This document shows, in pieces, positions 37,542 to 39,411 of a stretch of DNA of 46,776 bases. Position numbers and translations under genes: made by a program. The notes beneath the pieces were generated by a model. That model made no database searches, had not been told where the DNA came from, and saw nothing but the letters and a program-made list of their open reading frames with translations. This DNA comes from Oscillospiraceae bacterium. Lineage in GTDB: Bacteria; Bacillota; Clostridia; Oscillospirales; Oscillospiraceae. Numbering within the stretch: the stretch's first letter is position 1; each line of letters begins with the position of its first letter. The stretch spans positions 1 to 46,776 of the forward strand of contig JAFSCK010000065.1 in the NCBI GenBank assembly GCA_017436785.1, in the 5' to 3' direction.

Positions 37542-37561
37542 GGCGACCCGGAACGGACTCG
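37542..37561 (-). repeat. 20-base copy of the tRNA-Asp 3' end
   Basis: On the minus strand CGAGTCCGTTCCGGGTCGCC, identical to the T-loop-to-acceptor part of tRNA-Asp (37689-37708 on plus), 147 bases further downstream. The base where the CCA A would be differs. Confidence 0.9.
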
Positions 37562-37637
37562 CTACATTATGGTGTCGGCGGGGCCCTACCCGCCGAGCAA
37601 CGGTCCACCGGACCGTTGCATTTCATTCTTCGAGTCC
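37555..37637 (-). other. tRNA-linked three-way junction element A
   Basis: An outer 7-bp stem (37555-37561 with 37631-37637) encloses two hairpins: 8 bp at 37575-37582/37589-37596, and 10 bp at 37597-37606/37610-37619 around an ACC loop. The loop-proximal GTCCACCGGAC and the nearby ATTCTTCGAG are shared with element B near tRNA-Gly. It would form a compact RNA fold downstream of tRNA-Asp. Confidence 0.6.
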
Positions 37638-37652
37638 TTATCCGGAGCAAAT

Positions 37653-37684
37653 AAAAAACGCCATCCATATGGATGGCGTTTTTT
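37653..37684 (-). terminator. Terminator after tRNA-Asp
   Basis: AAAAAACGCCATCC (37653-37666) pairs perfectly with GGATGGCGTTTTTT (37671-37684), loop ATAT; on the minus strand it ends in a T run. Confidence 0.85.
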
Positions 37685-37687
37685 ATT

Positions 37688-37764
37688 TGGCGACCCGGAA
37701 CGGACTCGAACCGTCGACCTCCAGCGTGACAGGCTGGCGTGCTAACCGACTGCACCACCGGGCC
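37688..37764 (-). tRNA. tRNA-Asp (GTC)
   Basis: 77 nucleotides with encoded CCA. Acceptor stem GGCCCGG/CCGGGTC, anticodon stem GCCAGC with loop CTGTCAC giving anticodon GTC, and T arm with GGTTCGAGTCC. The cloverleaf closes fully. Confidence 0.95.
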
Positions 37765-37887
37765 AGAACAAGTTGAATTATAGCAGATAATTCCCGATTT
37801 GTAAAGACCTATTTTTTTATTTTCCCTGACTTTTTTCTGTTCTCCCCCTATTCTCCCGGCAAAAAGTCCCAATCGCCTGACAAGCGA

Positions 37888-37916
37888 TTGCCAAATTATC
37901 CTTTTTTCGCTACAAT
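37888..37916 (+). promoter_or_regulatory. Promoter of the XRE membrane regulator
   Basis: TTGCCA (37888-37893), 17-base spacer, TACAAT (37911-37916), 30 bases before the ATG. Confidence 0.65.
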
Positions 37917-37945
37917 AAACCCATCCAAACGAGCGAGGTGATCCT

Positions 37946-39127
37946 ATGTACGAGATCAGCAAGGAAGCCTTCGGCAGCTTCGTTTCTGCCCTTCGGAAAG
38001 AAAAGGGGCTGACCCAGAAGGAGCTGGCAGAGCAGCTCTACATTTCTAACAAGGCGGTCAGCAAATGGGAAACCGGCACTACCCTTCCGGATACCGCCCT
38101 CCTGATGCCGCTGGCGGAGGCGCTGGGGGTAACGGTGACGGAGCTTCTGAAATGTCAGCGGCTGACGCAGGAGGAATCCCGACAATCAGAGGAGCTGGTA
38201 AAAACAGTCATCCAGCTGTCGGAGGGTGGACTCCAGAAATACCGGCCCGACCGTTGGAAACGGGGCATTCAGCTGCTTCTGAGTGCCATCATCGGAGCGC
38301 TGGAGATCTGGCTTATGCTGCTCTATGGCTACACATGGGACGAGCTGTCGGTGGCTCTGCTGACCATGATGGTACTGATGGCCCTCTTCGGCACCTATTT
38401 CTGCGTCTTCGCCAAGGAGCGGCTCCCGGATTACTATGACAGCAATCGCGTTTCCGCCTTCGCTGACGGCTTCCTGCGGATGAACATTCCCGGCGTCTAC
38501 TTCAACAACAGCAACTGGCCCTACATCGTCCGGGCGATGCAGCTGTGGGCCATGATTGGTCTGGCTGGCTGCCCTGCACTGTATTTCCTTTGCAGGAAGC
38601 TGTTCCCCGGCTTTGTGACCTACGGCTGGACCTATGTGATGCCGCTGATCACCCTTGGCGGAATGTTTCTCCCCGTCGTGGTGGTAGGCAGAAAATATGA
38701 ATTTGCCCCAGATACCCCCCGCCCGGCTTACAGCGGAAGGCAGGACCGGATCATCTTCGGTGTGACCGCGGTACTGATCTTATCTTTGGCCCTGTTCCCC
38801 GCCCTCGGCGGACTGTGGTCCTCCGGCTCCGGCAGCCGTGTGGGCTGGCACGAAAGCAAAACGCTGGAAAGCTGGAATGCCGGCTATTCCTACTTCCAAG
38901 GCTACCGCCAGCGGTCCGTCAATGTACAGGGAGATCCCACCACGCTCCACGCAGAGCTCCGCACAGAGGCTGGCGCATTTACCCTGCGTGTCACCGATCA
39001 GCAGGGTGCGCTCCTCTACGAGGAGAGATTTACGGGATCCGCCACTGTGGATGTCCCCATTCCCGGCAAAGTACAGGTGCGTGTGACTGGTGAAAAAGCA
39101 AAGGGAAGCTTTTCTATTGGATGGTAA
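37946..39127 (+). CDS. XRE-family regulator with membrane domain
   Basis: 393 residues. Residues 8-68 form an XRE helix-turn-helix ('GSFVSALRKEKGLTQKELAEQLYISNKAVSKWETGTTLPDTALLMPLAEALGVTVTELL'). After a linker there are about six membrane helices between roughly 110 and 290, then a soluble C-terminal domain (about 300-393) predicted to lie outside ('WNAGYSYFQGYRQRSVNVQGDPTTLHAELRTEAGAFTLRV'). A DNA-binding head, membrane body and outer sensor-like tail suggest a membrane-bound one-component regulator. The ligand and targets are unknown. GAGGTG precedes the start. Confidence 0.85.
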   Translation: MYEISKEAFGSFVSALRKEKGLTQKELAEQLYISNKAVSKWETGTTLPDTALLMPLAEALGVTVTELLKCQRLTQEESRQSEELVKTVIQLSEGGLQKYRPDRWKRGIQLLLSAIIGALEIWLMLLYGYTWDELSVALLTMMVLMALFGTYFCVFAKERLPDYYDSNRVSAFADGFLRMNIPGVYFNNSNWPYIVRAMQLWAMIGLAGCPALYFLCRKLFPGFVTYGWTYVMPLITLGGMFLPVVVVGRKYEFAPDTPRPAYSGRQDRIIFGVTAVLILSLALFPALGGLWSSGSGSRVGWHESKTLESWNAGYSYFQGYRQRSVNVQGDPTTLHAELRTEAGAFTLRVTDQQGALLYEERFTGSATVDVPIPGKVQVRVTGEKAKGSFSIGW

Positions 39128-39134
39128 TACAGTT

Positions 39135-39172
39135 GAAGAGGCTGTCTCACGAAGTGAGGCAGCCTCTTTTTT
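39135..39172 (+). terminator. Terminator after the XRE membrane regulator
   Basis: AGAGGCTGTCTCAC (39137-39150) pairs with GTGAGGCAGCCTCT (39154-39167) with one wobble, followed by TTTTTTCTTT. Confidence 0.9.
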
Positions 39173-39178
39173 CTTTAC

Positions 39179-39286
39179 TGGAGTGGGTGTGTCCTTTCGG
39201 CACATCGTAAGGTAGCGCTGGGAAGGGGTCCAGCGCCCGACAGTCCACCGGACTGTCGGATTATATTCTTCGAGCCTTCCGACATC
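39179..39286 (-). other. tRNA-linked hairpin element B
   Basis: Downstream of tRNA-Gly on the minus strand. It has a 7-bp hairpin (39215-39221/39230-39236) and a 10-bp hairpin (39237-39246/39250-39259) around ACC, the latter with the same GTCCACCGGAC core as element A (as GTCC-ACC-GGAC), plus the shared ATTCTTCGAG. The distal end TGGAGTGGGTG (39179-39189) matches the tRNA-Gly 3' end TGGAGCGGGTG in 10 of 11 bases. Confidence 0.55.
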
Positions 39287-39296
39287 CTTTTTCTAC

Positions 39297-39334
39297 AAAA
39301 AAGAAAGCCTTCCCTTCGGAAGACTTTCTTTTTT
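39297..39334 (-). terminator. Terminator after tRNA-Gly
   Basis: AAAAAAGAAAG with CTTTCTTTTTT closes an inner CTTCC/GGAAG stem; T run on the minus strand. Confidence 0.8.
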
Positions 39335-39335
39335 A

Positions 39336-39411
39336 TGGAGCGGGTGACGAGGCTCGAACTCGCTACCTCCACCTTGGCAAGGTGGCGCTCTACCGGATGA
39401 GCTACACCCGC
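39336..39411 (-). tRNA. tRNA-Gly (GCC)
   Basis: 76 nucleotides with encoded CCA. Acceptor GCGGGTG/CACCCGC, anticodon stem CCACC/GGTGG with loop TTGCCAA (anticodon GCC), T arm with GTTCGAGCC. Full cloverleaf. Confidence 0.95.

Follow-up and report, generated by a model that had tools for sequence, protein, structure and literature searches.

The question raised by this locus is why both of its tRNA genes are followed by the same multi-hairpin unit ending in a partial copy of the tRNA itself. The window, meaning the whole stretch of 46,776 nucleotides analysed (contig JAFSCK010000065.1 of assembly GCA_017436785.1, from an Oscillospiraceae bacterium), holds tRNA-Asp and tRNA-Gly, both on the minus strand, as its sole tRNA genes according to ARAGORN. 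tRNA genes are classic entry points for mobile DNA, and the elements found there usually bear an integrase and fit one tRNA. Here, a single non-coding core of about 100 bp stands behind tRNAs of 15–17 isotypes, most copies carrying ends that belong to their own tRNA. An initial annotation of the two units had offered a tRNA-targeting mobile element, a functional RNA and a processing signal as possible readings. The mobile element is the best supported of these, because of empty and occupied loci, tandem arrays and the similarity of cores behind different tRNAs in a single genome; the functional RNA has been weakened, since the stem changes are almost solely from Watson-Crick to Watson-Crick pairs, and the processing signal is a weaker reading. 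Judged from sequence comparison, the tRNA-tailored DNA element is real and lineage-restricted.

Architecture and distribution of the units

Direct reading bore out the named parts behind both tRNAs, in the same order, including the partial copies of the tRNA 3' ends (20/20 bases for Asp and 10/11 for Gly). The Gly direct copy is degenerate, and the right box of its unit is lost. The shared sequence CTCGAAGAAT is present in both units as described, yet it needs another interpretation: taken with its preceding bases, it includes 9 nt that repeat, in inverted form, the T-arm belonging to the tRNA directly upstream. This inverted copy had been overlooked, and each unit therefore has an inverted copy on its left and a direct copy on its right. 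The apex of hairpin 1 is GTCCGGTGGAC in both. Short motifs alone, with one mismatch allowed, are not significant within the window; the whole units are, as a covariance model trained without either of them (R2, below) matches both. Folding of four reference units with DNA parameters gave z-scores of -4.8, -5.2, -11.0 and -6.1. At the Rfam gathering score, nothing except the two tRNAs was found in the window, and a permissive Rfam scan of loci L001–L004 returned, besides tRNAs, only matches below the gathering score (E of at least 0.069). The observation made in the window is confirmed and extends far beyond it.

A tight sequence pattern run over 297 genomes matched three, the window's own included, and the new cases lie at tRNA-Lys (G069) and tRNA-Arg (G009), the ends of both being copied from their own tRNA. 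The covariance model R1 was built from these two units and the two of the window. The second model, R2, was built from the alignment A4 of 99 units, the rows of which exclude the window units yet were found through R1. With R1 (E≤0.1), 117 of the 136 genomes of the genus hold units, up to 29 in one genome (G113; 33 with R2 at E≤0.001), and the window's own genome has 11 matches at E<1e-3. An order-wide sample of 394 genomes gave four with matches (R2, E≤1e-5), two of the window's genus and two of one other genus in the same family; model searches over more than 40 genomes were run with stricter filters. Among the pattern matches listed, the named genomes are by record title nearly all metagenome-assembled genomes of Oscillospiraceae or other Clostridia/Bacillota, many titles naming ruminant gut sites; titles outside the Oscillospiraceae include, by title only, Gordonibacter and two Devosia. 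No description of such units turned up in the literature searched at title and abstract level.

For the tests below, 193 model matches (94 from 67 loci and 99 from 80 loci, a subset of the loci collected) were reduced by 16 repeats to 177 distinct units, and these sequence counts do not equal independent events. The loci were picked from the best model matches, and weak units are thus under-sampled. A tRNA on the same strand lies within 120 bp upstream of 111 of the 177 units and within 320 bp of 131; no unit has only an opposite-strand tRNA nearby. The 111 comprise 15 isotypes, and a wider count of tRNAs with a hairpin and an inverted box behind them reaches 17. The 46 units lacking a tRNA within 320 bp upstream include several at contig ends, deep in arrays or at apparent junctions of other elements where part of a tRNA is retained, and some of the 46 have no visible tRNA remnant.

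The typical unit can be written S - t - S' - core - S. In this notation, S denotes the tail of the tRNA (T-loop to CCA), t the hairpin of a terminator (missing from one unit, at L133), S' an inverted copy of S matched mostly over 8–9 nt, and the core, common to the units, a series of two to three hairpins of about 70–115 bp. The gap between tail copies measures 100–199 bp in 142 of 158 spacings, which leaves no room for a tyrosine integrase gene of the unit's own.

Ends matched to the resident tRNA

The match between unit ends and tRNA was tested on the 111 units, the 66 without a tRNA within 120 bp upstream being excluded. A left, inverted match of at least 8 nt was found in 94 of them, against a maximum of 30 in 1000 reshuffles of the tRNAs, and a right, direct match of at least 8 nt in 96, against a maximum of 26. 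The right match reaches at least 15 nt in 75 of the 111, a length attained by none of 10,930 other-isotype pairs. R1 itself contains TCGAA, part of the inverted box, and for this reason only the box bases beyond TCGAA are independent; box sequences track the tRNA T-arm, for example CGAGTCCC and CAAATCCC. When the tRNA and its left and right copies were compared position by position, all three agreed at T-arm positions 3–10 in 89–108 of 108 units, a count somewhat inflated because the best-matching stretch was taken as the right copy and three of the 111 were dropped for a weak one. Agreement falls to 55 of 108 at position 11, indicating that an 8-bp box is held and that beyond it chiefly the left copy decays.

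Of the 171 tRNAs with a matching hairpin behind them, 140 have an 8-nt inverted box; of the 85 without such a hairpin, 5 do, and all five have a unit-like core on reading. This comparison replaced a first control (95 of 114 tRNAs with a scored unit, 51 of 143 without), which was contaminated by units in loci that had not been scanned with the model. The copies expected by the initial annotation in related genomes, adjoining tRNAs and with tRNA-matched ends, were found; they keep their relation to tRNA position and show compensatory changes.

A second type of unit was seen at L011, L014, L024, L025, L040, L064, L081 and L155. It has an inverted T-arm box as in the main type, followed by an AGGGCGG-like stretch, a hairpin, an A/T-flanked GTCCGGTGGAC-like hairpin and GTGGGAGA(G/A)TCC, with a long stem around ACGCATCC..GGATGTGG next. 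In four cases parsed by script, the G/A base is the T-arm allele of the box.

Presence and absence, arrays and spread among tRNAs

The orthologous tRNA-Gly locus was compared across genomes, 30 loci being fetched, of which 25 contained the tRNA and 24 had at least about 120 bp downstream. By reading, a unit is present in 7 of the 24 and absent from 17; one of the seven, L108, has only degenerate copies that the model did not score. The occupied locus of G120 can be aligned with the empty loci of G009 and G030 from the displaced tail on, over about 220 bp, with 95.5% and 89.0% identity, respectively. The insertion is precise; the stretch inserted in G120 carries its own terminator, the old tail and old terminator sit past it, and the tRNA tail is intact. 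In G008, a unit without a terminator lies between the Gly and Cys genes of a Val-Asp-Phe-Gly-Cys tRNA cluster, which occurs in L244 and L270 without the unit. This pair, in which the kinship of L244 and L270 to G008 is less certain and the flanks differ more, is weaker evidence.

Tandem arrays of near-identical units were also found. The nearest core belongs to the same isotype in 46 of 111 units (shuffled mean 11.6, maximum 23) and to the same genome in 19 of 111 (shuffled mean 1.9, maximum 10). Cores only 4–6% apart occur at the Gln, Leu and Ser tRNAs of G116 and at the His and Gly tRNAs of G022, where the Asp core is also alike, less closely; in both genomes each tRNA has its own terminator and its own inverted and direct ends. 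Such alike cores with local ends came about either by movement, the ends being made anew, or by gene conversion acting on older units. On the comparative evidence, the units are mobile.

Further features were noted around these loci. L128 and L125 have the downstream flank and distal unit in common and differ in carrying tRNA-Leu versus tRNA-Arg plus an extra unit, a difference that is a rearrangement at a unit. Stretches of about 0.25–2.2 kb, some with genes, lie between the tRNA tail and the next unit in L233, L332, L072 and L148 and resemble other CCA-end insertions. The gene-bearing stretches of about 2 kb (L233, L332 and L072) were considered as gene cassettes, and this idea was dropped as unproven, their flanks too resembling such insertions. 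Another kind of small palindromic insertion, similar in its ends, was seen by eye in L069, a tRNA-Asp array, and in L098; in one case it interrupts the inverted box of a unit, and in the other it stands at a different locus. The third unit of the tRNA-Val array of L063 (2648-3985, in G054:C14) measures 1.3 kb and lacks its left hairpin, and a fragment of a PF00589 tyrosine recombinase (G054:C14:38854-39306) lies shortly before it.

Structure pointing to folded DNA rather than RNA

The compensatory stem changes noticed between the two units of the window hold across the family. In A4, 96.3% of paired cells are complementary, versus 70.9% after shuffling, both sides have changed at 17 of 18 pairs, and 372 double-change cells were counted over the 99 units; with partner columns shifted by 1–3 positions, pairing falls to 29–43%. 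Because of the fit of A4 to its own structure, the pairs of hairpin 1 were counted again on the raw sequence; there, 167 of the 177 units reach a threshold of 8 of 10 pairs, which gives 1670 pairs (10 each). G-U accounts for 14 of the 1654 standard pairs, compared with 156 of 2497 in tRNA acceptor stems from the fetched loci (Fisher p=4e-21, a value inflated by relatedness and repeated loci, tRNAs of overlapping loci having been counted more than once, with the direction plain). Covariation with almost no G-U pairs favours folded DNA over RNA, and the structure of the unit, as read from these pairing patterns, points to the former. The folds leave an unpaired stretch between box and hairpins, and no extrahelical bases were identified in them.

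Mechanism and alternative explanations

The order box-variable core-box corresponds to attC geometry with the T-loop as receiving site, and folded-strand exchange by a tyrosine recombinase was placed first on this ground. The preferred reading, to which an even chance is given, is a miniature mobile element, made of non-coding DNA, with the T-loop as its point of entry into tRNA genes and with attC-like integration of a folded strand. The core and its two boxes (S' and the next S), once single-stranded, would fold into a stem mimicking the tRNA T-arm, and a recombinase, probably a tyrosine recombinase provided in trans, would swap one strand between this stem and the T-loop of the tRNA gene, in the way that attC and attI are recombined by the integron integrase. 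A match between the 8-bp boxes and the tRNA would be required because the boxes are the proposed pairing region of the exchange. Repeated entry would build tandem arrays, and spread could be explained without any host function. As a folded circle, the cassette would form a dumbbell with a stem made of the tRNA tail and with the terminator loop and the core as caps. A broader proposal, held tentatively and with more doubt than belief, is a tRNA-anchored integron-like system, in which tRNA genes may serve as dozens of receiving sites for a moving folded single-strand core, the two boxes being rewritten to each new T-arm and insertion always rebuilding a working tRNA.

Several points weigh against folded-strand entry at the T-loop. 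No movement event was observed and no enzyme has been linked to the units; the integron integrase model TIGR02249 scored above its cut-off in none of the 136 genomes of the genus, and only about 4 of 59 PF00589 matches in eight unit-rich genomes lie within 5 kb of a unit among those listed. The integron R-box consensus is GTTRRRY, which the boxes of the units, being tRNA T-arm sequence, fail to match. The 8-nt inverted box is missing at 31 of the 171 hairpin-followed tRNAs and the 8-nt right copy in 15 of the 111 units, through decay or because they are not needed. Gene conversion between older units could also produce similar cores with local ends. Finally, G120 has the host T-arm allele in both tails and the allele of other species in the inverted box, which favours target duplication over a tail brought in by the cassette.

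This last result leads to a target-duplicating integration, either Cas1/casposase-like or by a transposase, in which terminator, inverted box and core would be the insert and the S of about 21 bp a target duplication left by cuts staggered between the T-loop and the CCA end. The 21-nt direct repeats, the tandem arrays and the two G120 tails agree with it, and some casposons are described as using and duplicating the 3' end of a tRNA gene (PMC6614799); however, it leaves unexplained the 8-bp match that is maintained by an inverted T-arm copy within the insert, and no fixed terminal inverted repeat marks the ends. This route is considered unlikely. It is somewhat less probable again that the units are immobile now, being old residents of many tRNAs that were kept alike by gene conversion and multiplied by slippage or homologous recombination, with the inverted copy arising from fold-back copying at the terminator hairpin. 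Such a history would suit the similar cores with local ends in one genome, the near-identical tandem units, the agreement of the inverted copy with the tRNA just past the box, which is above chance (0.55 at positions 10–12), and single cases where this copy imperfectly reaches the terminator. It is opposed by the 7 occupied and 17 unit-free orthologous tRNA-Gly loci, and a first placement at 15–17 isotypes with the same junction would still require a site-specific process.

Two explanations depart further from the folded mobile element. A functional RNA acting in cis, where the inverted box of a read-through transcript would pair with the T-arm or with the downstream copy as a switch or as a control of tRNA quality or processing, appears improbable: the units do lie on the same strand at a similar distance behind their tRNAs, with a box complementary to the T-arm and a conserved fold, but G-U pairs are nearly absent, a terminator usually separates tRNA and unit, presence at orthologous tRNAs is patchy, and no Rfam family except tRNA reaches the gathering score in the window. 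Attachment-site scars left by known tRNA-targeting phages or islands are hardly credible. Displaced tRNA fragments, and several units at apparent prophage or island junctions, recall such scars, yet one hairpin core at 15–17 isotypes with an inverted box is no attachment scar, and by eye the junctions of other elements fall at different points of the tRNA, close to the anticodon loop or to the CCA end.

Weaker TIGR02249 matches occur in 133 of the 136 genomes and in all 14 control genomes, and they resemble generic tyrosine recombinases. Two conserved tyrosine recombinases, with open frames of 304–370 and 337–385 aa, share one contig in all eight unit-rich genomes (Table 1). A Y1 transposase (PF01797) is found in 55 of the 136 genomes. 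An HUH Y1 transposase was rejected as a necessary driver, since PF01797 had no match in the unit-rich genomes G113, G094, G054, G116 and G108 (92–97% complete) or in G082.

Comparison with known systems

In its general workings the unit resembles integron cassettes and tRNA islands, but it does not qualify as a member of either class. In descriptions of attC sites, a variable structure that can be branched is flanked by two R boxes, heptanucleotides in antiparallel orientation (PMC2727003). The units are similar in their antiparallel boxes of 7–8 bp, in a variable centre of similar size with conserved and sometimes branched structure, in their tandem arrays and in insertion beside a fixed receiving site; they differ in that no integron integrase passed the cut-off in 136 genomes, that many different tRNA genes serve as receiving sites and that no unit is proven to bear a gene. 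In islands at tRNA genes, the tRNA is reported to be regenerated and a displaced 3' fragment left at the far end (PMC4383910). The regenerated tRNA and displaced fragment of the units resemble these islands and prophages, which rely on tyrosine integrases; unlike them, the units are mostly 100–200 bp long, have one core for many isotypes and contain an inverted T-arm copy.

REPINs are described as non-coding, hairpin-forming and present in many copies per genome (PMC3116915). The REPIN/RAYT system is alike in these three respects and unlike in the fixed tRNA targets of the units and in its Y1 transposase, not found in six unit-rich genomes. Compared with casposons, some of which share the use and duplication of tRNA gene 3' ends, the units are smaller; casposons have terminal inverted repeats and their own Cas1, and none turned up here, where no search for Cas1 was made. 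The units also differ from DDE-type miniature inverted-repeat transposable elements, as their ends vary with the resident tRNA and have no fixed terminal inverted repeats. In filamentous phages of the CTX type, which use XerCD, the attP consists of inverted sites folded from single-stranded DNA into a recombination stem, and the target is dif. The inverted sites of the units would form a comparable stem; unlike that attP, they target tRNA genes and come without a phage genome. The choice may lie between an undescribed recombinase acting on folded DNA at T-loops and a copying process that remakes the ends at each target, and either outcome would extend knowledge of recombination through folded single-stranded DNA past the cases of integrons and filamentous phages.

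Features of the window and minor observations

Table 1. Positions of the two units, their tRNA genes and model matches in the window, with the contigs that carry the paired recombinases.
Feature	Position	Strand	Basis
tRNA-Asp (GTC), target of the first unit	37688..37764	-	ARAGORN; Rfam RF00005, 66.7 bits
Direct repeat 1 (DR1), intact T-loop-to-CCA part of tRNA-Asp	within 37688..37764	-	
Terminator-like palindrome between tRNA-Asp and unit	37649..37687	-	direct sequence reading
Inverted repeat (IR, left box), inverted tRNA-Asp T-arm copy GGACTCGAA	37629..37637	-	9-nt match to own tRNA, locus L006
Hairpin 1 of Asp unit, 10-bp stem, apex GTCC-GGT-GGAC	37597..37619	-	reading and fold
Hairpin 2 of Asp unit, then ACACCATAATG	37575..37596	-	reading, fold, model match
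R2 model match, Asp unit	37565-37633		E=9.1e-20
Direct repeat 2 (DR2; displaced tail with right box), tRNA-Asp 3' end copied directly over 20 nt	37542..37561	-	20/20
tRNA-Gly (GCC), target of the second unit	39336..39411	-	ARAGORN; RF00005, 65.2 bits
Terminator-like palindrome between tRNA-Gly and unit	39295..39335	-	direct sequence reading
IR (left box), inverted tRNA-Gly T-arm copy AGGCTCGAA	39269..39277	-	9-nt match, locus L007
Hairpin 1 of Gly unit, compensatory changes against Asp unit	39237..39259	-	reading and fold
Hairpin 2 of Gly unit	39215..39236	-	reading and fold
R2 model match, Gly unit	39203-39273		E=3.5e-14
Hairpin 3 of Gly unit, optional, present in many relatives too	39188..39204	-	reading; weak fold
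Decayed DR2 of Gly unit, 10/11 of tRNA-Gly 3' end	39179..39189	-	reading; no exact copy by script
Contigs of the paired tyrosine recombinases	G113:C3, G018:C27, G094:C5, G082:C6, G019:C59, G116:C13, G054:C1, G108:C64		

Viral and plasmid sequences were searched as well. The single viral match of the tight pattern (L005) is coding-like DNA without a tRNA and was judged to be due to chance. A looser pattern matched five viral contigs (L057–L061), all judged by eye: L057 appears coding and was set aside, L058 and L059 have a unit behind a partial tRNA, the unit of L060 lies at the contig end, and that of L061 stands beside genes reading as phage genes. A BLAST search of the Asp unit against phages and plasmids gave only weak partial matches, nearly all at the terminator end, and a G116 unit searched against E. 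coli genomes had no match. In L059, several tandem partial copies of the tRNA-Lys 3' end follow directly behind the right copy of the unit. Downstream of tRNA-Gly in L091, L102 and L178, a separate repeat composed of GTGAAATGCCTGCGGGCGTG..ATTTCAC palindromes was observed.

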